Positions 31,729 through 54,173 of a DNA stretch of 64,000 nt are shown one piece after another. Numbering within the stretch: the stretch's first letter is position 1; every line of letters begins with the position of its first letter. The position numbers and the translations under genes are program-made. The notes beneath the pieces were generated by a model. The model did no database searches. It was not told the origin of the DNA and was given only the letters and a program-made list of their open reading frames with translations. The DNA is from a virus. The DNA is taken from positions 18,089 through 82,088 of the IMG/VR virus record IMGVR_UViG_3300043403_000102; one strand, given 5' to 3'.

Positions 31729-32870
31729 TGGTCTCTCCCAGCGCTGAGCGCGTTCCAAACCCCCAAGGCCTCGGCGTGGACGTCATCCCTCGATACCCCG
31801 GGCGGTAACGTCATCTGCTCGATGAACTCGGCAATGGCCGCCTTGGCATCGGACACCTGAGGCAGCGGCCCCAGGTCAATCGTGGCGTCGACGGGGGCCG
31901 CGTCTTCCACGACAATCGCACCGGTTGCCAGGACGGCACGCACCTTCTCGCCTGCCTTCGGTCCGAGGCGCGCATAGACGGGGTGGGACTTGGCGACCAG
32001 CATAGGCATCGCCATCGCGGCGTCGTTCGCCTCGTCCACGCGAAAGAACCGAGGCCCGGGGACTTCGACCCCTGTGATTGAATCAGGGACATACAGGGAC
32101 AGGCCGCCCACTGCTGGGTAGGTGCCGTCATCACCGAAGCCATGCGGAATTAGCGTGCCTACCTGAAGGATGCTCATCGCCCCGGTGACGCCCTCGCACT
32201 CCCAGAACTCACGGTGGTGGAAGTTCCCGACGAAGCAGTCGAGGACCCCGAGCCTCGTCATCACATCGAACAGGGCATCGTAATGGATGGCATCGTTGGC
32301 TCGGGCCTTCCATTCTCCCGCGCCCTTGTCGTCCCCGTAGACACCAACGTGTGTGATTAAGATCTTACGAGTATTGATCAACTCGCAAGGCGGGGGCTCG
32401 AAGGTCCGCAGGTACTCGGACATGGGCATCTGAGACTGGAACGGCACGCAGAGGGCCGTGATGCCCAACTCCTCCATGTCAATCCAAGTCGGCTCGGTGA
32501 CGATGGTGGCCTCGTTGAACAGCGGGGCCAGCGCCGTGTTGCCGTCCTTGGCGGTGGCGTCGGGCATGTCGTGGTTCCCCGGGATGAGCACGACCCCCAT
32601 GGTCTGGGCGTCCTCGCTGCTCAGCACGTGCTTCACGGCCGCGATGAGTGAGGGCTCGGGGCGGCACTTGTTAAAGAGGTCACCGGCCACGAACAGCACC
32701 TTCACCCCTGCGGCCTTGGCCTTGGAGATGGACGCGCTAAAGGCGTCGAGAGTTTCCTTTGCTCTACGGTTCAGGCCCGCGATGATGGGCCCTCCATACT
32801 TGGGGTGGTTGTCGATGTGAAGGTCGGCCACGATGCCGATGCAGTTGGATTCCTTTTTCTTGGCAGCCAT
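31725..32870 (-). CDS. SbcD/gp47-like metallophosphoesterase subunit
   Basis: 381 residues from ATG 32870, overlapping the RecA stop (TGATG). The calcineurin-like motifs are intact: GIVADLHIDNHP, KVLFVAGDLF, LIPGNHDMPD, then ILITHVGVYG and FHHREFWE. It supplies the Mn-dependent nuclease of the SbcCD/gp46-47 complex. A C-terminal extension of about 100 residues is partly helical. Confidence 0.9.
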   Translation of the reverse strand: MAAKKKESNCIGIVADLHIDNHPKYGGPIIAGLNRRAKETLDAFSASISKAKAAGVKVLFVAGDLFNKCRPEPSLIAAVKHVLSSEDAQTMGVVLIPGNHDMPDATAKDGNTALAPLFNEATIVTEPTWIDMEELGITALCVPFQSQMPMSEYLRTFEPPPCELINTRKILITHVGVYGDDKGAGEWKARANDAIHYDALFDVMTRLGVLDCFVGNFHHREFWECEGVTGAMSILQVGTLIPHGFGDDGTYPAVGGLSLYVPDSITGVEVPGPRFFRVDEANDAAMAMPMLVAKSHPVYARLGPKAGEKVRAVLATGAIVVEDAAPVDATIDLGPLPQVSDAKAAIAEFIEQMTLPPGVSRDDVHAEALGVWNALSAGRDQ

Positions 32871-33865
32871 CACTTCTCCTCTTCGGGTATTGCGGCAAGG
32901 TCGGCCTCAAACTGCTCGATGCTGACAACGTCAGTCCAGCCCAAGTTGGCGAGCGCAGTCTTGATGGACTGGCACTTATCGGGCACGCAGCCGACATCCT
33001 TGGCGTGATGAAGGATGGCGTGCTTGTCGCTGAACCCCGTGGCGTAGTCGAGCTTGAGCTCGGCCTTGCGAAAGGGCGGGCACAGCTTGTTCTTCATGGC
33101 TTGGATCCCCATGTAGCGTGCGCCCGGGCCGTCGCCCTTGCCGTGCCTGACATTGAGGCGCACCGATGCGTAGAACTTGATGGCGTTGCCGCCGGGAGTG
33201 GTCTCGGGGTTCCCGTACAGGACCCCGATCTTCATGCGCACTTGGTTGATAAGCAGGAGCGTGGCCCCGTGGCGGTGCTTGCCCAGCAGCGCCGAGAGCT
33301 GCCTCAAGGAGCGCGACCAGATGCGCGCCTGCTCGCCTATGGCGGCGTCCCCGGTGAGGCCCTCGTCGAACTCCTTCTTGGTCTTGCAGGCGGCCACGCT
33401 ATCGACCGCAATCAACATCGGGCGCTTGGTCTTAGCGAGAAGCCGCTCAATCTGCGGGAACATCCCGGCCTCCCCGTCCATGTAGTCGGGCTGCAACAGC
33501 AGGAGCTCGTCGGTGTTCACACCCAGCATGCGGGCCCACTCGGGGTCGTAGGCGTGTTCGACTTCGACGAGGACGGCTTGACCGCCTATGCGCTGGCACC
33601 CGGCAAGCATCATGTTCATGACGCTGGACTTGCCCGCGCCTTCGCCCCCGTACATCTCAATCACGCGGCCCCAAGGAAGACCGCCTACTCCTAGGATGTA
33701 ACGATCGAGCGGTGTAATCCCGGTGGGGAACACGCCCCTCACGCCGACGTTGGCGCTGGCCAACGTCATGGCGATGTCGTCGCGCTTGAACACCGTACAA
33801 AGATCATCGGCCAATGCCTGGGCGGACTCGGTACCCGTCGGGGGTTTCTTCTTGATCGCGGCCAT
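32870..33865 (-). CDS. recA: RecA/UvsX recombinase
   Basis: 331 residues. The core is complete: GITPLDRYILGVGGLPWGRVIEM, Walker A GGEGAGKSS at 73-81, Walker B MLIAVDSVAA, and loop/base INQVRMKIGVLYGNPETTPGGNAIKFYAS. The N-terminal domain is short and a C-terminal zone (DVGCVPDKCQ...) is specific to the phage. It forms the recombinase filament for strand exchange. The gene lies directly downstream of a terminator-ended structured RNA. Confidence 0.92.
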   Translation of the reverse strand: MAAIKKKPPTGTESAQALADDLCTVFKRDDIAMTLASANVGVRGVFPTGITPLDRYILGVGGLPWGRVIEMYGGEGAGKSSVMNMMLAGCQRIGGQAVLVEVEHAYDPEWARMLGVNTDELLLLQPDYMDGEAGMFPQIERLLAKTKRPMLIAVDSVAACKTKKEFDEGLTGDAAIGEQARIWSRSLRQLSALLGKHRHGATLLLINQVRMKIGVLYGNPETTPGGNAIKFYASVRLNVRHGKGDGPGARYMGIQAMKNKLCPPFRKAELKLDYATGFSDKHAILHHAKDVGCVPDKCQSIKTALANLGWTDVVSIEQFEADLAAIPEEEK

Positions 33866-33884: not shown

Positions 33885-34010
33885 AAAAAAAGCGGCGGTG
33901 CTTTTTATCCGATAGTCAGCAGCAAAGAATCCATGACGGTGCTGCGCTCGAAAGGACCAACTCACGCACGCAGCACCCGGATCTCGCTGGTCGGAATTTG
34001 CACCGCCGCA
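33885..34010 (-). ncRNA. candidate structured sRNA or leader with anti-leader loop
   Basis: A ten-base stem (GCGGCGGTGC at 34000-34009 and its complement at 33892-33901) encloses about 100 bases. Seven T residues follow at 33891-33885 on the minus strand, giving a strong intrinsic terminator. Inside is a nine-base stem (33938-33946 with 33969-33977) whose 22-base loop holds TTGGTCCTTTCGA, the exact complement of the leader before genes at 46-50 kb. It lies between SSB and RecA genes. It may be an sRNA, a 3'-end-derived RNA or an attenuator of recA. Transcription has not been shown. Confidence 0.6.
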
Positions 34011-34034: not shown

Positions 34035-34814
34035 CTAAAAGTCGTCGTCATCAATACCCCCGCCGCTCTTAACGGGCGTGGCATCGACGTCGATAACACC
34101 AGGCGGCGGGGCATCAGGATCTTCCCCCGCGAGGATGGCCGCGATCTCATCGGGCGTGCGGCGGGGGTAGACCGTGCTCAGGTCGTTCAAAGCGCCGAGC
34201 CAAGAACGATCGGCAATCGGGCTGGGTGCCTTAGAGAACCGCACCTTGTATCGGGTGTCCGTCTTGCCTGTGCCTTCGCGGTCGATGACCATGTTGTACC
34301 CGCGATCGGGATGACTGATGTCCCCCAGGGCCGTGTCATCGTCAGGGCCACTCCCGAGCATCAACGTGAGAATGTCCCCGTAAATGCCGGGGGCGTACTC
34401 CGCAACGAGCACCCCCAATGCGGGGTTCTGAAGGTCAATGACATTGGCCAAGATGCGGTGGCCTGCCGTGAAGTCGCCCGCCGTCTTGCTGGCCTGGCCC
34501 TGGCTGCGATAAAGCTCGGAGGCTTTGTCACAGGAGGCACACAGCTTCGACGCTCGTGTCTTGCGCGGGCACACGGTGGCCGTCTTCTTGGCGGGGTCAT
34601 TGGGGTTGGGAAGGTAGTGAACATATGTCTCGTAAAACGGGGACCTGATGTGGGGTCCCCACGGGGGCAGAATGCGCACGAGGTTGCGCCCCACGACCAG
34701 CTTCATCTTGGCCTTCTGACGGGCGGCCTTCTGGTCGAGGATGTTCTGGCGGGCTTCTTGAAGGAAGGAGAGGTCGGCTTTGCCGTGGACTGTCAGTGCT
34801 TTGTCGTCGCTCAT
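34035..34814 (-). CDS. single-stranded DNA-binding protein, T4 gp32-like
   Basis: 259 residues. It has a basic N-terminal helix (QKAARQKAKMKLVVGRNLVRILPP), a zinc-binding zone (TVCPRKTRASKLCASCDKASELY), an OB-like core, and a very acidic C-terminal tail ending GGGIDDDDF. This follows gp32: N-domain, zinc OB core, acidic tail for partner contact. It is located beside RecA, SbcCD and polymerase genes. AAAGGAAACC precedes the ATG. Confidence 0.85.
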   Translation of the reverse strand: MSDDKALTVHGKADLSFLQEARQNILDQKAARQKAKMKLVVGRNLVRILPPWGPHIRSPFYETYVHYLPNPNDPAKKTATVCPRKTRASKLCASCDKASELYRSQGQASKTAGDFTAGHRILANVIDLQNPALGVLVAEYAPGIYGDILTLMLGSGPDDDTALGDISHPDRGYNMVIDREGTGKTDTRYKVRFSKAPSPIADRSWLGALNDLSTVYPRRTPDEIAAILAGEDPDAPPPGVIDVDATPVKSGGGIDDDDF

Positions 34815-34862: not shown

Positions 34863-35354
34863 TTAGAGGTCGGAGTCGAGTAAGCGTTGGCGGGCCTTCG
34901 AGGTCGCAGTCTCGCCGTTGATGGAGGGGCTCGGCCTCATCTCGGCACGGTAGTTGGCCCCTAGGCTGATGAGCATCTCGCGCTTGGTCTGAAGGGCATC
35001 GCACACGTTGCCGACCTTCTCCACGTGCAGGGTTACGGAGTCCATCGCCTGTGCGGCACGCGTGAAACGCGGGTCGAGTATCGTGCTGGCCTTGACGAAC
35101 TCATCGGTGGCGGGCTTGCCGTTGGACATCGTGGCCCCCTTGTATTCGATGTAAAGCTGCGACTCGACCACCTCAAGCTCGCGCTTGACCTGGCGCTGAC
35201 GAGCCTTCGCTTCGGCGTAGCAGCCGCCGTAATACGCGACGTGACCGGGGATTGAGGTCATGTCGTTGTTGATCTCGGTCTCGTTCCCGATGCTCACGAC
35301 CTCGCGGACTTGGTCCGGGTCGAGCATCGACGTGTCTTGCTTGGGGTTTGTCAT
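34863..35354 (-). CDS. replication-module hypothetical protein
   Basis: 163 residues, helical (EAKARQRQVKRELEVVESQLYIEYKG). It leads the SSB operon behind promoter copy 6. Its place next to SSB and the recombinase suggests a mediator or assembly factor, but no signature of a known mediator is visible. The EYKG-x-TMSNGKPATDEFVK block looks conserved and may form a surface helix-turn. Function unknown. Confidence 0.6.
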   Translation of the reverse strand: MTNPKQDTSMLDPDQVREVVSIGNETEINNDMTSIPGHVAYYGGCYAEAKARQRQVKRELEVVESQLYIEYKGATMSNGKPATDEFVKASTILDPRFTRAAQAMDSVTLHVEKVGNVCDALQTKREMLISLGANYRAEMRPSPSINGETATSKARQRLLDSDL

Positions 35355-35360
35355 GTTAGA

Positions 35361-35386
35361 TATTTAGGGGCGCCAGTTTGGTTTAC
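35361..35386 (-). promoter_or_regulatory. repeated promoter motif, copy 6
   Basis: GTAAAC-N13-CTAAATA, then six bases (TCTAAC) and ATG 35354. It drives the SSB end of the recombination cluster if functional. Confidence 0.7.
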
Positions 35387-35391
35387 CCGAA

Positions 35392-37965
35392 TCAAACGGG
35401 CAGACTTTTTAGGTGACCCCAGTCATCCCCGACCTCCACGTCCACGGCCATCGGCACCCCGCCGCTAGGCCACCGCAGCATCAGGCGTTTGGCCTCGGCG
35501 GCCACCCGCAACACGTCGGCGTCGGGTACCTCCAGCACGATGGAGTCGTGCACCGTCATGACGACCTTGGTCTTGGGCTCCTCGTCCAGGGTCCATCGCA
35601 CGATCTCGACGAGGCTGGCCAGGCAGAAGCAATTCGCGATTCCTTGGATGGGGGTGTTCTGTGAGACGTTGACCCAGTGCCTTCGGATCTTCTCGTCCTC
35701 CTTGGTGCTGCCCTCTTGGCCCAGGCCATAGGCCGAACGACGGAACGTCCAATCAAGGCCGCTGCCCGGAGGGTTCCAAGACCACCGCAGCACGCCAGAT
35801 ACAGTGCCTTGAGCTTCTTGGTCGCGGCGCCACTTCGCCAGGCCCGCGTACTTGCCTAAGATCTTGTCGATGATGTTCTGCGCGGCATCGGTCGACATCC
35901 CCAAGGACTTACCCAGGGCATAGGAGCCCTGGCCAAAGATGAGGCCGAAGTTCACGGCCTTGGCGGCGGACCGCTGGGTCTTGGTAACCTGAGCAATCGG
36001 CGTGTTGAAAGCCAGAGCGGCCGTGGCCTTGTGGAAGTCCTCGCCGCTTTCAAAAGCCTTAGCCATCGCAACGTCCCCGCTCAGCATCGCGGCAACCCGC
36101 AACTCCTGCTGACTGTAGTCGAGCGAGACCAACTTCTTACCGTGAGGCGCGATGAAGCACCCACGCGCCCAAGACCCCTCGTCCCCCTCGACGTCGGGGC
36201 GGGTGATGTTCTGCATGTTGGGCCCCGACGAACTCAAGCGCCCCGTGCGCACGATCTTAAACGTCGTATGCACTCGCCCGTCGAGCACCGACATGTGCTT
36301 AAGCATCCCGAGCCCGTAGGTGCTGCGCTGCTTCTTGATGCCTGCGAAGTCCAGCAACAGGGCCACCGCGGGGTGTGAGGTCTTGAGCGCTTCAAGGGTG
36401 GCCGCGTCCGTGCTCGGCTTGCCCGTCGCGGTCTTGCTCATGACGGGCAGATTTAACTTTTCATACAGCAATTGAGCGATCTCATTGGGCGTGATCTTGA
36501 TCTCATGCGGGGCCTTCTTGGTCGAACCAGGCCGCGGAAGCAACCACTCACGGGGGACCTCGGGGATGGCCGCCAGGGATTGAATACACTGGTTGAGCTT
36601 GTTCTCTAAGAACATGTCATAGGCGCGCACGTTATCAGGGCTCAAGGCCATGCCGTTGCGCTCGACGTGGCCGAGCATCTCGAAGGCGGGGCCTATGAGC
36701 TTGGACCACGTAAGCTTCAACGCCTCAGGCATGGCCTTGGTCATCCAAGCATCAAGACGCGTAGTCGCGGCGATGTCGCGCCCGTTGTACGCGTGCAGCT
36801 TATCGACGGGCATCTTGGCGAACCGTGCGCCCCCCTTGGCGTCCTCGTCGTCCTCGCCGCTCTTAGCGGCTTCCTTGTACCCGCCGAACCCCACGAGCCA
36901 GGACAGCGGGCCTAGCCCCGATAGGGCCTCGGGTTCTCGCAGGCGCGCCCACAGCATCAGGTCACGTTCGACCCCCTTAATGTCCACGCCGAACTGCCGG
37001 TAGATGGCGTGGCGATCGTGCTTGACGTTGACGTTGACCTTAGGGACTCGGTGGTCTTCCATGAGCGCCTTGAAGGCACGCTGAACCACGGGGGTCCCCA
37101 GGGCCTCGCGGCTGAGCACCAGGGGGGCGCATCCACCATGGCCAATGCCTACGCATAGCAGCGCGAAGTCGCGCCCCCATAGGCTGCCTGCATGCTCAAC
37201 GTCAACCACCAGATTCCCGGGCGTCGTTGGCCCTTTGTATTTGTAGTCCCAGTGGATGTCGCACAACCTCTGGGCCGCCTCTATCGGGTCGGGTACCAAA
37301 GTCACCCCTGCGGGTTGCACGGGTAGCTCGGACGTCAGAGCCCAGGCCAGGTCTCTCTCGAACGTGATGCGTATAAAGCGATTGCGAATGCTGACGGTGT
37401 GGTCGCCCAAAATGAATGCGGGGATCCCCCGCACCATCCCCCAGGCGTGCCGCAGGTAGGTCGCATCTACATACCGCCCGAACGCGGACTGTATCGCGTG
37501 GTTACCGATGAGAATGATCCGGCTCGGCTTCGACTGCTCGATGTCGTTCAGCAAGTAGGGGCGGCACTTCTCGATCGTGTCGGTCTCGGGGGACTTCCCG
37601 ACGGAACACCCGATGGCATAGGTCAGGTTGACGCCGTCGGGGCATATGCGCTCAGCCAACCTGCGCACGTAAACGGACGAATGACTTGAGAAGGACCTGC
37701 CGCTGTGTGCCTCGTCGCGCGTGGGCGAGGGCAGCACGACGAGCGGCAAGCCAGGCGTAATAACAGGTGCCCCCATGCAGACGGTGGGGCTCTTGGTGTA
37801 AGCCTCGCAAGCCGTACATCCCGGAGTTCGCGCACGGGCTGCGTTCGCTCCCAACGTATCGAGCCCAGGGTTCCAAGGCTCCCACAGAGGCAGCGAGCGC
37901 GTGGGCTGCTCGGCCGTGGGTTCCAGAGGGTAAACCCGGTTATTCCAGTCGTCCCAGGGCTTCAC
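35392..37965 (-). CDS. polA: family A DNA polymerase with UDG-like N-terminal domain
   Basis: 857 residues from GTG 37965; GGAG lies 12 bases upstream. Residues 45-215 look like a family 4 uracil-DNA glycosylase with Cys at 50, 53, 120 and 134, but the catalytic GEAPG loop is replaced (LPSPTRDEAHSG). The 3'-5' exonuclease starts at LVVDVEHAG (Asp/Glu about 255/257) and ends with YNGRDIAATTRLD. Polymerase motifs are DYSQQELR (A), RSAAKAVNFGLIFGQG (B) and VHDSIVLEV (C). Motif B has Phe where E. coli has Tyr766 and motif C has HDS in place of HDE. The layout is that of SPO1-like polymerases. Confidence 0.92.
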   Translation of the reverse strand: MKPWDDWNNRVYPLEPTAEQPTRSLPLWEPWNPGLDTLGANAARARTPGCTACEAYTKSPTVCMGAPVITPGLPLVVLPSPTRDEAHSGRSFSSHSSVYVRRLAERICPDGVNLTYAIGCSVGKSPETDTIEKCRPYLLNDIEQSKPSRIILIGNHAIQSAFGRYVDATYLRHAWGMVRGIPAFILGDHTVSIRNRFIRITFERDLAWALTSELPVQPAGVTLVPDPIEAAQRLCDIHWDYKYKGPTTPGNLVVDVEHAGSLWGRDFALLCVGIGHGGCAPLVLSREALGTPVVQRAFKALMEDHRVPKVNVNVKHDRHAIYRQFGVDIKGVERDLMLWARLREPEALSGLGPLSWLVGFGGYKEAAKSGEDDEDAKGGARFAKMPVDKLHAYNGRDIAATTRLDAWMTKAMPEALKLTWSKLIGPAFEMLGHVERNGMALSPDNVRAYDMFLENKLNQCIQSLAAIPEVPREWLLPRPGSTKKAPHEIKITPNEIAQLLYEKLNLPVMSKTATGKPSTDAATLEALKTSHPAVALLLDFAGIKKQRSTYGLGMLKHMSVLDGRVHTTFKIVRTGRLSSSGPNMQNITRPDVEGDEGSWARGCFIAPHGKKLVSLDYSQQELRVAAMLSGDVAMAKAFESGEDFHKATAALAFNTPIAQVTKTQRSAAKAVNFGLIFGQGSYALGKSLGMSTDAAQNIIDKILGKYAGLAKWRRDQEAQGTVSGVLRWSWNPPGSGLDWTFRRSAYGLGQEGSTKEDEKIRRHWVNVSQNTPIQGIANCFCLASLVEIVRWTLDEEPKTKVVMTVHDSIVLEVPDADVLRVAAEAKRLMLRWPSGGVPMAVDVEVGDDWGHLKSLPV

Positions 37966-37967
37966 CG

Positions 37968-38588
37968 CTACAGCGCTCCTTCGATCCCCTTGTTGGTGCA
38001 CTGACGGCGAACGCGCTCTTCGAGCTTGCCGTCCTTGTGAATCTTGTCGATGGCGGGGCTGATGTTCGCATCACGCAGGTGCTCGACGAACTTCCACACG
38101 TCGGCGTAGGTCTTGGCGCCGCTGTCTCGGATGGCGTCGACGATCTCACCGAGCAGGGTCATGCGTGCGTAGGCAGACACGTCCGTCGAAATGACTGTGC
38201 CCTTGGCTTTAACGGGTGCCTGCGCCGCCGGTGGCTCCTCGTCCATCTCGCGCTTGATATCCGCCGAGGTCATGGTCGACAGCGTCGGCGGTACCACGGG
38301 GGCTGCGCCACCGAGCGTAAGCTTGGGCTTAATCCCAATTGTAAGCGGGGGCGCGGCGGCCGAGCCCGGACCCCCGCGAAGCAGTGCGGGAGCTTCGGTG
38401 AATATCTCCTTGAGCTGAACTGTCGCTTCGGCCGTCGAAGGCGGGGCCGCTTCGGGCGCAATCCCGAGAAGCTGCTGCACCTCCTTCCATGAAGTTACCC
38501 CCTCAATGGTCAAGGCGTGGCCAGTCCAGTTGATGCCGTACGCATTGCCGTTAATTTTTATCGCGGCCGAGATCGCTCTTATTTCCAT
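37968..38588 (-). CDS. replication-module hypothetical protein, 206 aa
   Basis: Start at ATG 38588 (MEIRAISAAIKINGNAYG), with AAGGACC upstream. It has a small beta N-terminus (INWTGHALTIEG), a long Pro/Ala-rich linker, and a helical C-terminal domain (VSAYARMTLLGEIVDAIRDSG; DVWKFVEHLRDANI). It leads the polymerase operon. It might be a polymerase or helicase accessory; no family recognised. Confidence 0.55.
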   Translation of the reverse strand: MEIRAISAAIKINGNAYGINWTGHALTIEGVTSWKEVQQLLGIAPEAAPPSTAEATVQLKEIFTEAPALLRGGPGSAAAPPLTIGIKPKLTLGGAAPVVPPTLSTMTSADIKREMDEEPPAAQAPVKAKGTVISTDVSAYARMTLLGEIVDAIRDSGAKTYADVWKFVEHLRDANISPAIDKIHKDGKLEERVRRQCTNKGIEGAL

Positions 38589-38626
38589 GGTCGTTTGGTC
38601 CTTTTCTTCTTGCTTGTGCTGAATTG

Positions 38627-39501: not shown

Positions 39502-40835
39502 AGGGCACCTTCCTCGTCAGCCGTGAGCGCCTGACCCCCGCGAATGAACTGCCCATAGGCGAAGCCATTGTGGTACGGGCCGACGACCGCCCCGCTTTGA
39601 GCATACCGGCACCACCCGACGTTCAACCTTACGAGGCCGTTCTGTCGCTCCTCCTCGGTGCCGCAGATGGCGATACCAACGTCCGAGATCGCAGCCTTCA
39701 TGAAGCTGTCCGCGATGTCCGCCATCGACACGACCTCCTTCGATAAGCTGTCTCGCTTAGCCCACGACGCCGTCCAAAAGCGCGTGCGGTACTTCACGGC
39801 AAGGCCTCGAAGCTCGGAGTACACCCCGCCGAGCGCCCCGTACTTGTTGTCAAAGGACCCTAGGCTTTGCATAAGGTCGCCCGAGTCCACGATGACCACG
39901 GTGGGTTCAAGCCCACGTTCGGCACGCAACATCTGGAGATGCTCGTCGATGTCCTTGGCCGTGGTGCTGTAGCTAGGGAACTGCTTGATGACGAGACAGC
40001 CCCCCATCGTGTTGACGAAGTCCATGACCTTCGAGTTAACGAAGTCGGCGCGCTTGTTCAGCTCGTCGATGAGCACGTCGGCGATGGACGCGTCGATGCG
40101 ATCGATAAGGTCCGACTCGCTCATCTCAAGGCTGTAGTACACGACGGTGCCCCCGCACTCCATCGTGTACTTTGCGATATGTCCCAGCAGTTGGCTCTTG
40201 CCGAACTTGGGGGCCCCGAGGATGGTGCCGAGTTCACCGGCAGCCAGGCCCCCACGGATCATGTCGTCAAGGTCCGAAATACCGGTACCCAGACGAGGGG
40301 GGCGCTTGTTGAGGCGCCGTGCCTCGGTACGGGTTTCGAGGTCGCCTAGGTAGTCCGCGCCCATGCTGATGTCGACGAGACCGATGCTGGCGGCCTTGTC
40401 GATCTTGGCGCGGATGGCCTCGTAATCCCCGCGCGGAAGGATGGCGAGGGATTCGTTCATGGCGTTCCACATCGCCACCTTGCGGGCCTCGCCTAGGAAG
40501 GCCTCTTGGACAAATAGGCCGTCCGCTCGTGGGATCTCCTCGGCGTACTCGAAAGCCTGGGACGCGCCGATGAGTTGGTCGTTGGTGACCTTGCCCGAGT
40601 TTACCCGTGCGCGGATGTCCTGAAGGACGACGATGCTAGTCGGGGGTTTGTTGTGGCGCTTGTACAGGGCAACGGCGGACTCGACGATGAGTTGAAGCTC
40701 AGGCTTCCCCATACGAGCTGGTGCCAAGAACGGAGCCACACGCTGGAACAAGAGGGGGTCTGCGAAGAACTGATAGATGGACGCATACTGGAAGTCGACT
40801 TCAAAGGGATAGGGCTCGGTTGAGGGTGCGGGCAC
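39498..40835 (-). CDS. dnaB: replicative DNA helicase, DnaB-like
   Basis: 445 residues from GTG 40835, which overlaps the upstream gene by 35 bases. Residues 1-140 are a helical N-domain; the RecA-like motor has Walker A GAPKFGKSQ, VVYYSLEMSESDLIDR, and Walker B TVVIVDSGDLMQS. The C-terminal region ends AQSGAVVGPYHNG..., a shortened linker. It works with the primase downstream. The GTG start and 35-base overlap are unusual but no better start is visible. Confidence 0.9.
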   Translation of the reverse strand: MPAPSTEPYPFEVDFQYASIYQFFADPLLFQRVAPFLAPARMGKPELQLIVESAVALYKRHNKPPTSIVVLQDIRARVNSGKVTNDQLIGASQAFEYAEEIPRADGLFVQEAFLGEARKVAMWNAMNESLAILPRGDYEAIRAKIDKAASIGLVDISMGADYLGDLETRTEARRLNKRPPRLGTGISDLDDMIRGGLAAGELGTILGAPKFGKSQLLGHIAKYTMECGGTVVYYSLEMSESDLIDRIDASIADVLIDELNKRADFVNSKVMDFVNTMGGCLVIKQFPSYSTTAKDIDEHLQMLRAERGLEPTVVIVDSGDLMQSLGSFDNKYGALGGVYSELRGLAVKYRTRFWTASWAKRDSLSKEVVSMADIADSFMKAAISDVGIAICGTEEERQNGLVRLNVGWCRYAQSGAVVGPYHNGFAYGQFIRGGQALTADEEGAL

Positions 40836-41331
40836 TTTCGATCCATTCTCGCCACTGGCGGCGTCGGTCGGCCTTAGACTGGTACGTTAACGGAGCAAGC
40901 ACTTCACCGGAACGTTGCCGATAATAAGGCAACCAACAAATCACCGCCTTCAAACTGATAACCTCGCTGCGATAAGGGGTGCGCCCCTTCAACTGACGCA
41001 TGCGGCGCATGACAAAGGTGACGTAAGCGTCGAAGCTGACACGAGCCCGTATAATGAGCACCGCTGCCGTCGAATAGGCAGCGCGTTGGTTTTCCGTGAT
41101 GATCGAACGGGTGTTAGGCTTGGTAAGCAGGTTGCGCTCGTAGGCGACGAGCAACCTATCGACGGCCGAGTCAAGGTTGATGAACCCGTTCGGTAGGTTG
41201 TCAGGCCGCTTGATCTCATCACGAGACACGGCATCCATGGGGGGTGGTGCAACCCATTCACCGGGGCACAGAGCACCCAGCGATCTACCTATGCGCTTGT
41301 CGTTCGTCCATATGGGGGGTCGTCGCTGCAT
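40801..41331 (-). CDS. replication-module hypothetical protein, 176 aa
   Basis: MQRRPPIWTNDKRIGRS..., basic and helical (FINLDSAVDRLLVAYERNLLTK; FDAYVTFVMRRMRQLKGRTPYRSEVIS). It overlaps the helicase gene, so the two are probably co-expressed; a helicase loader or regulator is possible but there is no ATPase motif. Promoter copy 8 and a GAGAGGACCA leader lie upstream. Confidence 0.55.
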   Translation of the reverse strand: MQRRPPIWTNDKRIGRSLGALCPGEWVAPPPMDAVSRDEIKRPDNLPNGFINLDSAVDRLLVAYERNLLTKPNTRSIITENQRAAYSTAAVLIIRARVSFDAYVTFVMRRMRQLKGRTPYRSEVISLKAVICWLPYYRQRSGEVLAPLTYQSKADRRRQWREWIESARTLNRALSL

Positions 41332-41347
41332 TGGTCCTCTCGATGTC

Positions 41348-41713: not shown

Positions 41714-41759
41714 CAATTACCCCTCTCTTTCCTGCTTTGAATACACCCCGGCCTTTCCA

Positions 41760-42553
41760 CCCCTTTGACATTCCCTTGTGCTGTAACCCAGCAGGGGAGA
41801 CGTCACGTCTGGTGTAGATGCCTTGCGTCTGAAAGAGTGAATGATCTACTGCTGCTAACTCAGGTCGTACTAGCTGCGAGGCTTAGCAAGGAGATCTCCT
41901 ATATCGACCCTGATGGTTGAACACGTCGGGGGCACTTCCGTTCCCCGTGCTTGCCATATCTTCAATCCATCGAAGGTCTTCGATGAGGGTCCCCCCTCAT
42001 CAGGCGATCTCAACGCGGCCGACGCTATGCTGTACAGCGTGGGTGGTTGAGGCAATTTTTGTCAATTGGACGCTTAAGTCTCTGACAGTAGATCAAAGCG
42101 ACTCGCTTTGTGCTGTTCGATCTCGCTATATGGCCAAGGACCGCGAGCTTGAGGTCGTGTCCCTCTGGAAGCCGCTTGCCCATCTACATCCTCCCGTCGC
42201 CCGGACTGCTCCGCCGTAACATCATTCTCTGTCGATCTTGAATCCGTACCTAGGTCGCAGTCGGTTGACGCTGCGACAAACTGCTTACGGTGATGCACTC
42301 GACATGAAGTTTGATGCCACCTCGTGGCGGTAGAAACGGTGCCCCTTTGAAAGCCAAGGCATGTAGTTGCACTTCACTAGCGTTGAGATCGGTTTTGTTT
42401 GTCAACCAGCATCAGTTGTCGTATTCTGCGAAAGCTCGGTTAACAACCGAGGGCAGCATCTGAGATTGGTTTCTTTGTGGTGATTGTTTCCCTCTCTTGG
42501 CTGCTGTTGAGCCCCCACCGAGTTCGAGCTCGGCTGGGGGCTTTTCCTTTTTC
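41760..42553 (+). ncRNA. candidate large structured RNA
   Basis: No gene on either strand explains this 0.9 kb gap. It contains many inverted repeats: CATCGAA/TTCGATG, GATGAGGG/CCCTCATC (sharing GATG with the former, so they may compete), AAAGCG/CGCTTT, GTCGCAG/CTGCGAC, CTCGGTT/AACCGAG and a palindrome GAGATCTC. The stretch ends with a plus-strand intrinsic terminator. All genes nearby run the other way, so a plus-strand RNA is implied. Size is in the range of the large phage RNAs GOLLD and ROOL, but I cannot match a family. The 5' end is not defined. A replication origin is the alternative. Confidence 0.5.
42511..42553 (+). terminator. intrinsic terminator on plus strand
   Basis: GCCCCCACCGAG pairs with CTCGG-c-TGGGGGC across a TTCGAG loop: 12 base pairs with one bulge. 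TTTTCCTTTTT follows on the plus strand only; the minus strand lacks a T-run. It would terminate a plus-strand transcript from the gene-free stretch. Confidence 0.85.
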
Positions 42554-44831: not shown

Positions 44832-45488
44832 TCAACTTTCTTGTGGTTGGGGGAAACGACGGCACAACTCAAGCAGCCCGCTTTCGAGGGTGGTACCATA
44901 CCGCAGGGCGGTGGCTTTGATCTCGTCGCGGTCTTCGGCCGCGTCCAGCACGAGCCGCAGGGCGTATCGTTTCTGGTTGGTCATCGAGGCCTCCTCGGTT
45001 TGGAGGCCCCCGCCCTCGCCGTAGGCCCCGGGCCCCAGGTCGTCGAAGGTGTTGGTCTGGGCCAGGTCCTTGAGCATCAGCTCGATGTCCCCGCCCGAGA
45101 ACCCCGTCAGCGTGAGGTCGGGGAACTTGAGGTCGCTCAGATCTTTGAGCACCAGCGCGGCCTTGGCTAGGTCGGTGGTCCCACGCAGACGATTCAGCGA
45201 CAGCATCGCCGCCGCGGCCTGGGGGTCTTCGAGGTGGTCCGCAATCAACACGGGGATCTCTTTGAGCCCTGCGGCCTGGGCAGCACGGAATCGATGGTGC
45301 CCGTCGACCAGCACGAACCCATCATTGCCCGTGCGCACGGTCACCGGTTGGATAAATCCGAGCTTGGCGATGGCGTTCGTCAACATCTCGAACTCCGACG
45401 GGTCCATCGCGTTGGGGTTGATGCCTGGGTTCTCCTGTATCGCGGTGACCTTGAGATACTTCAGTTGGGGCTTCGGGGCTGCGGTCAT
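44832..45488 (-). CDS. ParB-like nuclease/CTPase-type protein
   Basis: 218 residues from ATG 45488, overlapping the sigma-like stop (ATGA). It has the ParB/Srx core: GFIQPVTVRTGNDGFVLVDGHHRFRAAQAAGLKEIPVLIADH, then AMLSLNRLRGTTD. The C-terminal half is helical with GFSGGDIELMLKDLAQ and an HTH-like segment. No methyltransferase is fused here. It could bind DNA near the origin or regulate genes. Confidence 0.75.
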   Translation of the reverse strand: MTAAPKPQLKYLKVTAIQENPGINPNAMDPSEFEMLTNAIAKLGFIQPVTVRTGNDGFVLVDGHHRFRAAQAAGLKEIPVLIADHLEDPQAAAAMLSLNRLRGTTDLAKAALVLKDLSDLKFPDLTLTGFSGGDIELMLKDLAQTNTFDDLGPGAYGEGGGLQTEEASMTNQKRYALRLVLDAAEDRDEIKATALRYGTTLESGLLELCRRFPQPQES

Positions 45489-46099
45489 GGTCTCAGATCC
45501 TCCAGGGTGCCTAGTTCGTTCAGTTCTTCGTACAGATTCCAAAGCTCCACGTCCGAGCGCAAGGCCTCCTTCACTTGGCTGCACATCCGGTAGAACTGCC
45601 TCGTGGTGACACCGAGTTGCTCGGCCCGCTCTTGAGACGCCCCGTTGTAGACGTCGGCGAGCGTGTGCTCTCGAACGACCGCACGCGCCTGCTCGGGTAC
45701 CTGCTCTAGGGCATTGTCGAGTAGGCGGTGGAACTTGCGACGCGCGTCCCTAAGGGCCTGCGTGCGTTCGACGTTCAACGCGGCGACCTCGGGCGTGGAC
45801 CCCTCGTCATCGAGCCAGCCCTCGGCCGCGTCTAGGTCGACCGCGTGCTTGATGCCCCTCGCGGCTTCCCAGTTGTCATGTATCGAATACGGACAGATCG
45901 TCCGCGCGACAAAGTTCCCCAGCTCCCTGCTCACGGCCACGTACGTGTATCCGGGGGCCTTGATGCCCTTGTCCCAAGTCGACAGAGCAATCCGCCATGC
46001 CTCCTGCTGCAGGTCCTCGGCATCGACGTTGTAGTATTTACGCTGAGCGTTCTTGATGACGTCGCGCATGACTTTGGCCTGCTCGCTTGTAATTTCCAT
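45485..46099 (-). CDS. phage-encoded RNA polymerase sigma factor
   Basis: 204 residues. Region 2 is visible at about 25-65 (VDAEDLQQEAWRIALSTWD and GYTYVAVSRELGNFVAR). Region 4 is at about 150-185 (LEQVPEQARAVVREHTLADVYNGASQERAEQLGVTTRQFYRMCSQV), a helix-turn-helix for the -35 element. Such a two-domain factor redirects host polymerase. The GTAAAC-N13-CTAAATA motif of this genome is the natural candidate target. A GAAGGGACCA leader precedes the gene, and a strong hairpin insulates it from the MoxR gene. Confidence 0.8.
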   Translation of the reverse strand: MEITSEQAKVMRDVIKNAQRKYYNVDAEDLQQEAWRIALSTWDKGIKAPGYTYVAVSRELGNFVARTICPYSIHDNWEAARGIKHAVDLDAAEGWLDDEGSTPEVAALNVERTQALRDARRKFHRLLDNALEQVPEQARAVVREHTLADVYNGASQERAEQLGVTTRQFYRMCSQVKEALRSDVELWNLYEELNELGTLEDLRP

Positions 46100-46135
46100 C
46101 GCCGTTGGTCCCTTCGAAAGTGAGAGTGAGAAACT

Positions 46136-46177
46136 ATATAGAGCCGGGGGAGAAAGTAAATACCCCCGGCTCTATAT
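46136..46177 (-). terminator. hairpin between MoxR and sigma genes
   Basis: Perfect 15-base arms, ATATAGAGCCGGGGG at 46136-46150 and its complement at 46163-46177, around a 12-base loop. It lies between the MoxR stop (46189) and the sigma start (46099). A weak T-rich tail follows on the minus strand. Confidence 0.75.
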
Positions 46178-46188
46178 TCGACTGATGC

Positions 46189-47334
46189 TTAGGGCATGAT
46201 GCCTGCGGTCCTAAAGATCGGCTCGAGCTGATACAGGACCTTCGTCGCCGCCGAACCCTTGGACAGCTTCGCCCGGCATAGGAGCTTGGCCGCAGGGAAC
46301 ACCAGGTCCGCCGAAGTCTCGACGGATTTGATCATCAGCTCCCAGAGCTTGTCGGCCCGAGCGTCGCGCTTGGCTGCGTTCGTCGGGATGACCAGGGCTG
46401 CGCACCCTTGGTACACGGCCAGCGTGCGATCGAGGCGCTTGTCGGGCTTCCAAGTCGTTTTGCCGTCGAGAAGCTCCTCGAAGTCGGGTAGGTCGGCAGC
46501 CTCGCAGTAAACCAGAAACTCGGAGGCTGCTCCCTCTCCCACGCAGCCGCTTAGCAGTTGCTGCGCCTCGATGGTACCTAGGCCGTGGATTGCGCCGCCC
46601 GCGATGGCCCGGGTGGCGACCTCCCAAGTGCGCAGCGAGGCCCACGCCTTCGACGCGTTCGGGTCTTCGGGCTTCGGGGTCTTGCGCAGCAGCTCGGGCC
46701 GCCGCGAGATGAACCCCGTGGTCAGGCCCGTGGCATTCGCGTAGGCAACCGGCCACTTAGCCATGACCATCTCCTCCAACGCTTCGGGGTCAGCGTTGCC
46801 CCCGATGGCCGCGCTCCCCGCGCCGCCGATCATGTAATCAATCCAATCGGTGTGACTCGGGGCATCCCAGCGCCAGTGAATGAACCGGTTTGCCATCGGC
46901 ATCGGAAGGTCGGTGCCGTCGGCCGACATCTCGACGGGGTTCTGAGAGGCCAGGATGCGCACCCTGCGATTGAGCTTGGTCTCACCGATCACCCGCTCGA
47001 ACACCACCCGAAGCAAGGCCTTCTGAACCATGGCAGGGGCCGTGTTGAACTCGTCGAAGTGGATCACGCCACCCCCTGCCGTGTTCAGCCGCGTGGCATA
47101 GGCCGGGGGCAGATACGAAAGCGCCCCCTTCTCGACCCAGGGCATCCCGAGGAAGTCCGATGGTTCGCGCAGGGACGCGATGACGGTCTCGCACAGGAGA
47201 CCGAGCTCGCCGCAGGTGCGTTCGACTACCGAGCTCTTGGCGGTACCGGGCTCGCCGGTGAACAAGGTCGGGAGTCCCCAGCCGTGAGGGCCTGGCGTGA
47301 AGAGAACGGTCTTGAGCATTGCTGATAGGTTCAT
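46189..47334 (-). CDS. MoxR-type AAA+ ATPase
   Basis: 381 residues. Walker A is TGEPGTAKSS, Walker B is GGVIHFDEFNTAP, then sensor I RILASQNPVE and PMPMANRFIHW. The C-terminal part is helical and acidic. MoxR ATPases act as chaperones with VWA-domain partners; the next gene upstream (47369-48628) is a VWA protein, so the pair is standard. A GAAAGGACCA leader precedes it. Confidence 0.88.
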   Translation of the reverse strand: MNLSAMLKTVLFTPGPHGWGLPTLFTGEPGTAKSSVVERTCGELGLLCETVIASLREPSDFLGMPWVEKGALSYLPPAYATRLNTAGGGVIHFDEFNTAPAMVQKALLRVVFERVIGETKLNRRVRILASQNPVEMSADGTDLPMPMANRFIHWRWDAPSHTDWIDYMIGGAGSAAIGGNADPEALEEMVMAKWPVAYANATGLTTGFISRRPELLRKTPKPEDPNASKAWASLRTWEVATRAIAGGAIHGLGTIEAQQLLSGCVGEGAASEFLVYCEAADLPDFEELLDGKTTWKPDKRLDRTLAVYQGCAALVIPTNAAKRDARADKLWELMIKSVETSADLVFPAAKLLCRAKLSKGSAATKVLYQLEPIFRTAGIMP

Positions 47335-47342
47335 GGTGTGAT

Positions 47343-47353
47343 GGTCCTTTCGA
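47343..47353 (-). promoter_or_regulatory. conserved TCGAAAGGACC leader, MoxR gene
   Basis: Reads TCGAAAGGACC on the minus strand, eight bases before ATG 47334. It includes a Shine-Dalgarno core (AAAGGA) plus conserved flanks. It is complementary to the loop of the structured RNA at 33885-34010. Confidence 0.65.
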
Positions 47354-48628: not shown

Positions 48629-48861
48629 CAAAGCACCTCAAGCCCGGCGTTCCGAACCCACTCGATGTAGCTCGCCAGGTTGATGAGGGTGGTGTTGACG
48701 TCGGTGCCGATCGTCTTGTACGCGATGACTTCACTACCTCCCTCGGCCATCAGCTCACCCACGCACGGGGTTCCCGGGTAGACGACGAACTTACGTTCGC
48801 TCTCTAACAAGATCGCCTGCGCCTCTTCCAACTTCATGTGCCGTCGTGTTGCCATGTTCAC
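48628..48861 (-). CDS. small hypothetical protein, 75-77 aa
   Basis: Start at GTG 48861 (overlapping the previous stop, GTGA) or ATG 48855 (MATRRHMKLEEAQAIL). The rest is alpha/beta with FVVYPGTPCVGELMAEG and a helical C-terminus. It lies inside the MoxR/VWA operon. Function unknown. Confidence 0.55.
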   Translation of the reverse strand: MNMATRRHMKLEEAQAILLESERKFVVYPGTPCVGELMAEGGSEVIAYKTIGTDVNTTLINLASYIEWVRNAGLEVL

Positions 48862-49721
48862 ACCCTCCGTGCCTTCTTGTCTTGCGCCTCTTGTTCAGCG
48901 CGTGCCTCGGCATCCAAGATAGACGCCATCAGCCGCGCCTTCATCGCCTGCATTGCGTCCTGCAGGCCCTGCATCGATTGCCCTAGCATCGTCTCGTAGA
49001 CCGAGACCTTGTTGATGGCCTCGTCGGTCTTGAGCTGCCTTGTCCTCAGAGCGCGTACCCCGAGGTCGTCGTTGGTGTTGATCTCGGTTTCGAGGTCCAC
49101 CAGGTACTGATGGGCTTCGGCCTCCATCGAGCGCAGCACGAGGTCCTTCACCTCCTCGGTTTTGATTGCTGGTATCTCGACGAACGTCTGCCCCTTGAGC
49201 GTCGGGCACTTTGTCAAGGCCCGCGTCGGTAGGAAATACAAGCCCCCCGCCTGCTTCAAGGCGATGCCTTGAAGCAGGAACGCGGTGTCGATGAGCCAAC
49301 CCGAAAGGTCCTGCGTGGACAGGGTGCCGTCCATGATGCGGTCGAACTCCTCGATAATCGCGGGGCCTAGGTGGTGCGCAGGCGGCTCTATGAAGGGGCG
49401 CCCAAAAAGCCGTGCCTGCACCACCACCCGGTAGTCCAGGGGTTCGGCGGGGTCGTCCGATTTGCGCTCTTCGACGAGCGCCCACCGACCAGATTCAATC
49501 CGTCGAAGCAGCATGTGTGGCCCTGCGGCCAGGCTCATGGCCCTGCGCAATGCCACCGCGGGGCTGCACTGTTTGGGGTGCAGGTGATCGGAGATCTGCG
49601 CTGTCGTAAGATCTGCGCAAAGATTGGCGTGGCTCGTGTTGCCACTCAGGCTCCACGTCACGATCGCTCCGGCAAGGTGCGATTGGTCGAACCCGGGTAG
49701 GGCTATCAGGTCAAGGGGCAT
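48858..49721 (-). CDS. hypothetical protein of the MoxR/VWA operon, 287 aa
   Basis: MPLDLIALPGFDQSHLAG..., with a beta-rich N-terminal half (RIESGRWALVEERK; YRVVVQARLFGRP), a centre with GLYFLPTRAL, and a long coiled C-terminus (INKVSVYETMLGQSMQGLQDAMQAMKARL). It is the largest partner gene of the MoxR/VWA pair and is likely part of the same complex. A perfect TCGAAAGGACCA leader precedes its ATG. Confidence 0.6.
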   Translation of the reverse strand: MPLDLIALPGFDQSHLAGAIVTWSLSGNTSHANLCADLTTAQISDHLHPKQCSPAVALRRAMSLAAGPHMLLRRIESGRWALVEERKSDDPAEPLDYRVVVQARLFGRPFIEPPAHHLGPAIIEEFDRIMDGTLSTQDLSGWLIDTAFLLQGIALKQAGGLYFLPTRALTKCPTLKGQTFVEIPAIKTEEVKDLVLRSMEAEAHQYLVDLETEINTNDDLGVRALRTRQLKTDEAINKVSVYETMLGQSMQGLQDAMQAMKARLMASILDAEARAEQEAQDKKARRV

Positions 49722-49724
49722 GTT

Positions 49725-49735
49725 GGTCCTTTCGA
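49725..49735 (-). promoter_or_regulatory. conserved TCGAAAGGACC leader, gene 49721
   Basis: Reads TCGAAAGGACC followed by AAC and the ATG at 49721. Together with AAC it matches 14 consecutive bases of the complement of the loop in the structured RNA at 33885-34010, the longest match found. Confidence 0.65.
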
Positions 49736-49736
49736 T

Positions 49737-49856
49737 TTACGGGGCGACAGTTACCGAGGCGAACACCCAGACCACCCCCACCAGGAGCGCGAGAAAGATC
49801 ACGCAATCAAGGATCGCGGCGGCGGGGCTTTGTTTGCATTCGTTTTCGTCAATCAT
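49737..49856 (-). CDS. small membrane protein, 39 aa
   Basis: MIDENECKQSPAAAIL..., then one hydrophobic segment (DCVIFLALLVGVVWVFASV). The start overlaps the next stop by ATGA, which supports it as real. A small single-span membrane protein of unknown role. Confidence 0.55.
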   Translation of the reverse strand: MIDENECKQSPAAAILDCVIFLALLVGVVWVFASVTVAP

Positions 49857-50179
49857 CCGAGTGCCTCTTGCATCGTGGTGTCCGAGCCCGACAACATCTC
49901 GTTGACCATCGCGGGCACCCGCCCGAAATACAGGATGCGTTTGTTGTGGTCCTCGCGACGTTCGATGACGGGGATCCCCGCCATACGCAGGCGACTGATG
50001 AGGGCCGCTGACGAGGCCCTATATTTCCCCGAATAGGTCGCGGCCGACCCCTTCAGGGTCGAGCCGCTGATGGACTCGTTCCCGAGAACGATACCGCGCT
50101 GATAGCTTCCCTTGCAAAGCGCCAGCGCCCGGTCTTGTTCCTCTTGTGTACCGTGGTCCCAGTTTGCCCACTTGCCCAT
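49853..50179 (-). CDS. hypothetical protein, about 108 aa
   Basis: Start at ATG 50179 (MGKWANWDHGTQEEQDR), six bases after a TCGAAAGGACC leader. It is basic, with an HTH-like centre (RASSAALISRLRMAGIPVIERREDHNKRILYFG), reminiscent of a winged helix with a wing of basic residues. It could bind DNA. Overlaps the small membrane gene by four bases. Confidence 0.6.
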   Translation of the reverse strand: MGKWANWDHGTQEEQDRALALCKGSYQRGIVLGNESISGSTLKGSAATYSGKYRASSAALISRLRMAGIPVIERREDHNKRILYFGRVPAMVNEMLSGSDTTMQEALG

Positions 50180-50182
50180 GAT

Positions 50183-50193
50183 GGTCCTTTCGA
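50183..50193 (-). promoter_or_regulatory. conserved TCGAAAGGACC leader, gene 50179
   Basis: TCGAAAGGACC with ATC before ATG 50179. Fourth exact copy of the core. Confidence 0.65.
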
Positions 50194-50208
50194 TGATGCG
50201 GGTACTCC

Positions 50209-50269
50209 GCTCAGGACTCCGCATGCGTGATGCGAGGCCCTGAGCGAAGGGGCAGTCGCCTGCCCCTCA
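50209..50269 (-). terminator. stem-loops between two small genes
   Basis: AGGGGCAG at 50249-50256 pairs with CTGCCCCT just after it, and CGCTCAGG near 50209 pairs with CCTGAGCG near 50240. Together they form adjacent hairpins between the stop of 50278 and the leader of 50179. No T-run is evident. They may terminate or protect mRNA ends. Confidence 0.55.
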
Positions 50270-50277
50270 ACACCTCC

Positions 50278-50784
50278 CTAGCGAGGGTTTGCAGACAGGT
50301 GGGCCAGCGGTACGAACCCGAGCATCTTCCGGACGTTGCCGTCCGTCATCTCGGCACCGATGCGCACGAGGGCGCGCTTGCCGATGAGCTTCTCGACATA
50401 GAGCGAGTTCAGGTCGCTCTCGCTGTACGCCCCCAGGTATTCGGCGTGGTGCTTGGCGCGAAGCCAAACCTGCGTGCCGAGGGACACGATCAGCTTGCCT
50501 GCGCCGACACCTACCGGAGGGGCAAATCCTTCGGCCTTCTGGGCGGCGATGGTTTCGATGAGCGTCTTGCAGGCGCTGATGGCTTCATCAGAGGCGGCCG
50601 TGATATCGACGTTGCGCCACTTTGCGACCATGCGGCCAATGCGCGCGGCCGATTTATGGGCAGCCACCGCGCTCCCGAAGACCGAGTCGATCTTGCTCTT
50701 CTTGGCCCTTGGGGCTTTGGTCGAGGCCTTGGTGACAGGAGGGGGGACGAGCGCGGGGCGAGCGGCCTTTTGAATAGTTGCCAT
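50278..50784 (-). CDS. hypothetical protein, 168 aa
   Basis: Start at ATG 50784 behind a TCGAAAGGACC leader. The N-terminus is Pro/Lys-rich and disordered (KAARPALVPPPVTKASTKAPRAKKSK). The rest is helical with ARIGRMVAKWRNV and VWLRAKHHAEYLGAY, ending with RKMLGFVPLAHL. The basic N-terminus suggests nucleic-acid contact. Isolated between hairpins, so probably an independent transcript. Function unknown. Confidence 0.6.
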   Translation of the reverse strand: MATIQKAARPALVPPPVTKASTKAPRAKKSKIDSVFGSAVAAHKSAARIGRMVAKWRNVDITAASDEAISACKTLIETIAAQKAEGFAPPVGVGAGKLIVSLGTQVWLRAKHHAEYLGAYSESDLNSLYVEKLIGKRALVRIGAEMTDGNVRKMLGFVPLAHLSANPR

Positions 50785-50791
50785 GATGTTT

Positions 50792-50802
50792 GGTCCTTTC
50801 GA
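50792..50802 (-). promoter_or_regulatory. conserved TCGAAAGGACC leader, gene 50784
   Basis: TCGAAAGGACC preceded by CGAA. The same extended core CGAATCGAAAGGAC also precedes the gene at 51674, so these are close copies of a leader cassette. Confidence 0.65.
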
Positions 50803-50817
50803 TTCGGGGGTAAGTCC

Positions 50818-50853
50818 CCGAAGCAGCCCGCAGTTGAGGGTGGGCTGCTTCGG
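50818..50853 (-). terminator. perfect 12-base hairpin
   Basis: CCGAAGCAGCCC at 50818-50829 pairs with GGGCTGCTTCGG at 50842-50853. It lies between the stop of 50858-51136 and the leader of 50784. No T-run is visible, but position and stability suggest a termination or processing site. Confidence 0.65.
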
Positions 50854-50857
50854 ACTC

Positions 50858-51330: not shown

Positions 51331-51429
51331 TCAGTTGTCTTTCTTCTTAGGGTACACCAGCTCGCTCATCGTTACCGCTGGGATGCGGACCGTCTTGGAT
51401 TCTGGCGGCCTCTTTACCGGGGCGCTCAT
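51331..51429 (-). CDS. tiny protein, 32 aa
   Basis: MSAPVKRPPESKTVRIPAV... ending LVYPKKKDN, with GGAGG just before the ATG. The start overlaps the stop of the gene at 51426 (ATGA), supporting it as a translated frame. Basic and disordered. Function unknown. Confidence 0.5.
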   Translation of the reverse strand: MSAPVKRPPESKTVRIPAVTMSELVYPKKKDN

Positions 51430-51674
51430 CGGAGGAACTCCTTGATGTCCCGGGCCAGGCAGCGCAGCTCCTCTTTGTCCAGGTCGGGGTCGCTGACCTC
51501 GATTGAGGCGCTGAGAATAGCGATGCAGGTTTGTAGGAGCTGCTTTTTGGCCCTCGCCTCCGTATCGCTCAACTCATCATCCCCACCATGGGGCTTCAGG
51601 TCTTCGAGGGCGAATTTGCAGTCATCCAGGTCGCGGAGAGTATTTTCAAATCGGCAATAGCTCATGTTGGCCAT
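51426..51674 (-). CDS. conserved small phage protein (MANMSYCRFENT family)
   Basis: 82 residues starting MANMSYCRFENTLRDLDDCKFALE, a start I recall as common to a widespread phage and conjugative-element family of unknown function. The rest is helical and acidic (DTEARAKKQLLQTCIAILSASIEV). The ATG follows a close copy of the shared leader (TCGAAAGGACT). Length equals the family norm. Confidence 0.65.
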   Translation of the reverse strand: MANMSYCRFENTLRDLDDCKFALEDLKPHGGDDELSDTEARAKKQLLQTCIAILSASIEVSDPDLDKEELRCLARDIKEFLR

Positions 51675-51681
51675 GTTGTTT

Positions 51682-51692
51682 AGTCCTTTCGA
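51682..51692 (-). promoter_or_regulatory. TCGAAAGGACT leader, gene 51674
   Basis: One base from the consensus (T for C at the end), upstream of ATG 51674. It shares the CGAA flank with the copy at 50792. Confidence 0.6.
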
Positions 51693-54081: not shown

Positions 54082-54109
54082 TCGAGGGTACTCCTGCCGT
54101 GAGGGTTAA

Positions 54110-54152
54110 AAGATCCGAGAGCCCCCTGTTTGTAAGGAGGCTCCCGGATCTT
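54110..54152 (-). terminator. terminator between tail-fibre and lysis modules
   Basis: AAGATCCGAGAGCC (54110-54123) pairs with GGCTCCCGGATCTT (54139-54152) with one mismatch. On the minus strand a CTTTTAA follows. It separates the virion gene at 54174 from the membrane protein gene at 53683. Confidence 0.75.
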
Positions 54153-54173
54153 AAGCGGCGAGATTAACCTAAA

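Follow-up and report, generated by a model that had tools for sequence, protein, structure and literature searches.

Why would a phage carry, between its gene for single-strand DNA-binding protein (ssb) and a recA-like gene, a folded RNA whose loop is the exact complement of a ribosome-binding leader that precedes several of its own genes? The question is raised by the IMG/VR virus record IMGVR_UViG_3300043403_000102 (82,088 bases), of which bases 18089 to 82088, a stretch of 64,000 nucleotides (nt) referred to here as the window, were analyzed. Another record of this virus matches it at 100% identity wherever the two overlap. The minus strand carries nearly all genes of the window, and the folded element lies within the 169-nt gap between ssb and recA. 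We propose, with a probability of roughly 0.58 and on the strength of sequence analysis, that the element forms the 3' end of the ssb transcript and works as an antisense RNA that masks a family of leaders and thereby lowers translation of the genes behind them. The features on which this proposal first depends are the following.

33885 to 34010, minus strand: structured RNA element, a nested rod with a 10-bp closing stem and then T7 (minimum free energy [MFE], −62.9 kcal/mol; z, −6.2)
33885 to 33891, minus strand: T7 run after the closing stem, terminator-like by sequence and by the terminator-like hairpins that distant relatives have in the ssb-recA gap
33948 to 33960, minus strand: anti-leader TTGGTCCTTTCGA inside the 22-nt apical loop, exact complement of leaders
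34035 to 34814, minus strand: ssb (phrog_1192, E 3e-21)
32870 to 33865, minus strand: recA-like recombinase, directly 3' of the element (PF00154, E 1.6e-63)

None of 200 dinucleotide shuffles folded as well as the minus strand from 34010 to 33885. The closing stem pairs GCGGCGGTGC with GCACCGCCGC (34009 to 34000 with 33901 to 33892) and, followed by the T7 run, has the makeup of an intrinsic terminator, that is, a GC-rich stem and then a U-run; because it spans ~98 nt, nested folding would be required for it to function as one. An earlier note, written from the sequence without database searches, had described this ten-base stem with its seven T residues and, within it, a nine-base hairpin whose 22-base loop holds the leader complement. 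Both descriptions agree with the sequence, the inner stem being GGTGCTGCG/CGCAGCACC. The note had also taken the complementary run to be wholly exposed. It does lie within the loop, but the MFE fold places five weak pairs there and leaves UUGGUC unpaired. Opening the 13-nt anti-leader costs 6.1 kcal/mol, compared with about −20 kcal/mol gained from the duplex. The element matched no Rfam family at or above the gathering score.

The anti-leader TTGGTCCTTTCGA is the exact complement of TCGAAAGGACCAA, a ribosome-binding leader with seven member genes and one partial member, all on the minus strand.

49723 to 49735, minus strand: leader TCGAAAGGACCAA of gene 48858-49721, exact, with 14 nt complementary to the loop
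50790 to 50802, minus strand: leader TCGAAAGGACCAA of gene 50278-50784, exact, with a strong hairpin upstream
47341 to 47353, minus strand: leader TCGAAAGGACCAT of the MoxR-type AAA gene 46189-47334, 12/13 bases
50181 to 50193, minus strand: leader TCGAAAGGACCAT of gene 49853-50179, 12/13 bases
46105 to 46117, minus strand: leader TCGAAGGGACCAA of the sigma-like gene 45485-46099, 13/13 pairs, one of them G.U
51680 to 51692, minus strand: leader TCGAAAGGACTAA of gene 51426-51674, 13/13 pairs, one of them G.U
41331 to 41343, minus strand: leader TCGAGAGGACCAA of gene 40801-41331, immediately following a promoter-like site of the phage type, 13/13 pairs, one of them G.U
38593 to 38607, minus strand: partial member AGAAAAGGACCAAAC before gene 37968-38588, with a complementary 10-nt core

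The four genes named in the earlier note, two with a perfect match (starting at 49721 and 50784) and two with a core match (47334 and 50179), all stand, and the family extends beyond them to the last four entries above. The motif begins 12 to 19 nt ahead of the start codon in the seven genes, and the flanks TCG and CCAA are conserved around AAAGGA. Strong hairpins without a T-run lie directly 5' of leader genes at 46100-46188, 50180-50277, and 50785-50857. The first 18 kb of the record held no additional exact copy of TCGAAAGGACCAA, and a search of contigs with the leader pattern returned, apart from this phage, single matches per contig only.

Several estimates indicate how readily such a match might arise by chance. 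When 99 minus-strand leaders of the window were considered, position 33948 was the sole transcribed place perfectly complementary to at least two of them over at least 10 nt, and such a site at 12 nt appeared in none of 60 simulated genomes. The expected number of copies of the 13-mer is ~0.001 on the minus strand of the whole 82-kb record and ~3e-6 in the ssb-recA gap. Among all gene starts, the seven best duplexes with the loop are those of the seven family members, with net energies of −6.7 to −11.5 kcal/mol after both partners are opened (−5.3 kcal/mol for the partial member). Three leaders carry one change each in positions 1 to 12 (two A-to-G and one C-to-T), and all three changes pair as G.U; this is modest support only, since such changes also preserve a usable Shine-Dalgarno sequence. 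Complementarity to the ribosome-binding sites of several targets, a feature of trans-acting antisense small RNAs (sRNAs), is present in the element.

The transcript to which the element would belong is suggested by a set of promoter-like sites. Nine minus-strand sites of the form GTAAAC-N13/14-CTAAATA, one of them with a mismatch, precede gene starts, whereas shuffled sequences contained zero or one.

53431, 41373, 38653, 35386, 27032, 24122, 22508, 20235, and 17084, minus strand: phage-type promoter-like sites, GTAAAC-N13/14-CTAAATA
35361 to 35386, minus strand: promoter-like site GTAAAC-N13-CTAAATA upstream of gene 34863-35354 and ssb, one of the nine
45485 to 46099, minus strand: probable ECF-type phage sigma factor (NCBIfam TIGR02937, sigma70-ECF, E 4e-6, below the curated cutoff)

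Since the site at 35386 to 35361 precedes gene 34863-35354 and ssb, the element would form the 3' end of that transcript and would report transcription of ssb and not of recA; the earlier note, which had linked it to SSB/RecA transcription, needs correction on this point. Gene 45485-46099, itself a member of the leader family, probably encodes a phage sigma factor: the top Foldseek matches of its model (low confidence; mean predicted local distance difference test score, 62) are mostly sigma factors, none with E < 0.001. This protein may be what reads the GTAAAC/CTAAATA promoters. At six of the nine sites an ATG follows CTAAATA after 6 to 7 nt, and transcripts from these six would be expected to be leaderless.

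If the leader and the loop pair, a change in one should be matched in the other, and relatives of the phage bear on this. No similar phage DNA was found among phage records. Protein searches with ssb and recA returned only the identical phage and distant relatives, and genome scans gave no match with ssb and only RecA-like proteins at ~39 to 49% with recA; it was the search with the portal protein that gave useful relatives. One of these, IMGVR_UViG_3300028024_000007 (92,779 bases; portal, 41%; RecA, 34%; SbcD-like, 38%), carries a recurrent leader with another sequence, AACCCAGGAGG, ahead of seven genes; five copies are exact and two have one mismatch. The reverse complement CCTCCTGGGTT occurs once in that genome, at 87465 to 87475, within the ~190 nt of noncoding DNA that separate ssb from the gene preceding it, where <1e-4 copies are expected (0.015 to 0.047 genome-wide). 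As the leader differs between the two phages, the reverse copy differs correspondingly, and both copies lie beside ssb, the pairing is supported. A sigma-like gene is within the leader set of both phages. In the relative, Sigma70 region 2 is the sole Pfam match of this gene (E 0.0023, below cutoff), and the top structure matches of its low-confidence model are mostly sigma factors; compared directly, the two proteins align weakly (E 0.012), so that no common ancestry is claimed on sequence alone.

A second parallel comes from start-associated sequences (SAS) and their extended form (ESAS), known from cluster K mycobacteriophages and cluster EF Microbacterium phages. SAS is a 13-bp motif that coincides with the Shine-Dalgarno position ahead of many nonstructural genes; it is conserved beyond its pairing with 16S RNA, and inverted repeats stand upstream of several or about half of the copies (ESAS) (PMC3203893, PMC7302621). 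Its function was not known in 2011, an RNA or a protein partner being left open (PMC3203893), and one reversed SAS away from gene starts in subcluster K1 was reported in that year as unexplained (Pope et al., PMC3203893). In the K1 phages Anaya and Angelica, we find that this reversed SAS forms the loop CCTCCTATCC at the apex of a long hairpin, which lies within a ~380-nt stretch near the right end that is noncoding in most annotations. The site has one mismatch in 13 and 10 consecutive matching nucleotides. In an alignment of seven K1 sequences, the stem is variable, 94% of its cells being paired, and the loop is constant; to keep 53 columns, one base of the Niklas sequence was omitted. The reversed copy in a loop is found in K1 and not in the other groups, and the parallel therefore favors the idea for K1 without making it a universal rule. 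Together with the matched reverse copy in the relative, it lends partial support to the earlier note's suggestion of an antisense action on ribosome-binding leaders. That note had named independent drift of loop and leaders as evidence to the contrary; such drift is not seen in IMGVR_UViG_3300028024_000007 and is seen in cluster K outside K1.

Two further observations concern these regions. The ~380-nt stretch is conserved (L111:34683-35067; 14 other cluster K phages have equivalents); in most cases no gene is annotated in it, and it combines conserved blocks with an apical loop that varies. The cluster EF phage AnnaSerena has a 486-nt gene-free gap (L127:32062-32547) in which CCACAAT-type motifs are repeated and strong folding is predicted.

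A number of results weigh against an antisense role. In the predicted fold the 13 nt of the anti-leader are partly paired inside their own loop, and the duplex energies alone are not distinct from those of shuffled loops. Because the sole other record is 100% identical, the species shows no covariation. The reverse copy of the relative lies 5' of ssb and not in a clean loop, is partly paired (opening, 7.5 kcal/mol), and sits in a region that folds no better than mononucleotide shuffles. No recurrent leader was present in eight large contigs of phages with terminators in the ssb-recA gap. Covariation in the K1 stem is not clearly above that of shuffles, and the cluster K subclusters other than K1 retain the leader with loops that are pyrimidine-rich or absent, none of them matching. 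AnnaSerena, with the SAS GGGAAAGGACCCC, has only an 11-nt reverse copy, which is buried in a stem.

These points leave room for other explanations. One that we regard as unlikely is that the element is merely a transcription terminator or attenuator between ssb and recA and that the leader match is due to chance or has no function. The T7 run behind the stem would fit, as would the many distant relatives with the ssb-recA order, whose gaps often hold terminator-like hairpins of unrelated sequence; a leader-complementary apical loop was found in none of the ssb-recA gaps of ~20 such relatives. Terminators are thus common in these gaps without a leader match, which makes the terminator ordinary and the anti-leader not. 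The nested fold is also unusually strong, the 13-mer would fall in the gap by chance at only ~3e-6, and the relative with a different leader has the matching reverse copy.

Somewhat less probable still, in our estimate, is that the leader motif is a site on DNA or RNA for a phage protein, the reversed copy being a further site or a decoy on double-stranded DNA. The motif does occur in both orientations, and phage repeat sites exist, such as the 13-bp stoperators of L5 (named in PMC3203893). However, every forward copy stands at Shine-Dalgarno distance before a start codon, the variants preserve RNA pairing through G.U, and the single reverse copy is carried by the loop of a terminator-like element that is strand specific. 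A third explanation retains the RNA-leader pairing and alters its outcome: pairing might activate or stabilize the messages, for instance if it opens the strong hairpins that immediately precede several leaders (46100-46188, 50180-50277, and 50785-50857), or the leaders might titrate the RNA. We consider this improbable, since pairing covers the Shine-Dalgarno core and would normally block initiation. That a plus-strand transcript displays the leader as a decoy, the same hairpin reading TCGAAAGGACCAA on that strand, is hardly credible given that the plus strand has neither a start codon at the right distance nor a T-run and that the T-run and nearly all neighboring genes are on the minus strand.

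Under the antisense explanation, the ssb transcript would start at the phage-type promoter and finish in the ~125-nt folded 3' element, whose apical loop may serve as an antisense seed for the ribosome-binding leaders of the phage. The RNA could act as a 3' untranslated region (3' UTR) or as a processed sRNA, pairing with TCGAAAGGACCAA over 12 to 14 nt, covering the Shine-Dalgarno sequence, and blocking ribosome binding. Once the replication genes are on, the sigma factor, MoxR/VWA, and other leader genes would be turned down. The earlier note had silencing fall on the MoxR/VWA and small-protein operons; the MoxR/VWA genes remain among the candidate targets, but the set is wider, and the presence in it of the probable sigma factor points to feedback and not solely to silencing of MoxR/VWA. 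A broader hypothesis, which we offer tentatively and hold to be possible but rather doubtful, is that several groups of phages rely on an RNA code in two parts, in which a phage-specific leader common to a set of genes and one antisense RNA with its complement coevolve. Here, sigma-driven transcription of ssb would make the RNA that shuts off sigma and the other leader genes, while the six of nine sigma-type promoters that lie 6 to 7 nt before an ATG would probably give leaderless messages that escape. Antisense action of the proposed kind would mean that phages control the translation of many of their own genes together by means of one RNA.

The surroundings of the locus provided some additional observations. 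SbcD-like and SbcC-like genes come after the recA-like gene, and a GC-skew switch at the element, looked for as a sign of a replication origin, was not found. The family A DNA polymerase at 35392-37965 has an N terminus matching the uracil-DNA glycosylase superfamily (PF03167, E 1.4e-8), and an 836-amino-acid phage protein (12196-14706) has a C-terminal match to the Fe/Mn superoxide dismutase domain (PF02777, E 4e-16). The ~700 nt at 41714-42411 contain no convincing gene, fold with a z of −3.8 versus shuffles over 450 nt, have no Rfam match, and are a possible large noncoding RNA. A strong hairpin with a T-run at 54082-54173 is a probable terminator.

How does this arrangement compare with known systems? 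With SAS it shares a conserved ~13-nt motif at the Shine-Dalgarno position, found here in seven genes, and, as in K1, a single reversed copy located away from gene starts; the hairpins upstream of the leaders recall the ESAS inverted repeats of cluster K phages. It differs in the sequence of the leader (TCGAAAGGACCAA here versus GGGATAGGAGCCC in cluster K and GGGAAAGGACCCC in cluster EF), in coming from an unrelated phage, and in that its reversed copy is in a terminator-like RNA by ssb. No later explanation of the role of SAS, and no RNA partner for it, was found in the literature searched; a reverse copy in a folded RNA offers a concrete partner for start-associated sequences. As judged from a nonexhaustive literature search, the combination of a start-associated leader family and an RNA that carries a dedicated reverse copy of the leader appears to be new. 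Like 3' UTR-derived trans-acting sRNAs such as CisR (PMC13250501), the element would occupy an mRNA 3' end and use its terminator; unlike them, it is phage encoded and would act on the phage's own leaders. The type of antisense mechanism is already known from staphylococci, in which the anti-Shine-Dalgarno motif of the icaR 3' UTR and the C-rich motifs of RNAIII and RsaE pair with Shine-Dalgarno sequences and block ribosomes (PMC3868564). There, as here, a 3' region or sRNA has a motif complementary to the Shine-Dalgarno sequence (PMC3868564). The staphylococcal RNAs have no sequence or Rfam relationship to the element, and they use a short generic UCCCC, whereas the loop beside ssb carries a 13-nt match fitted to the leader family of one phage.
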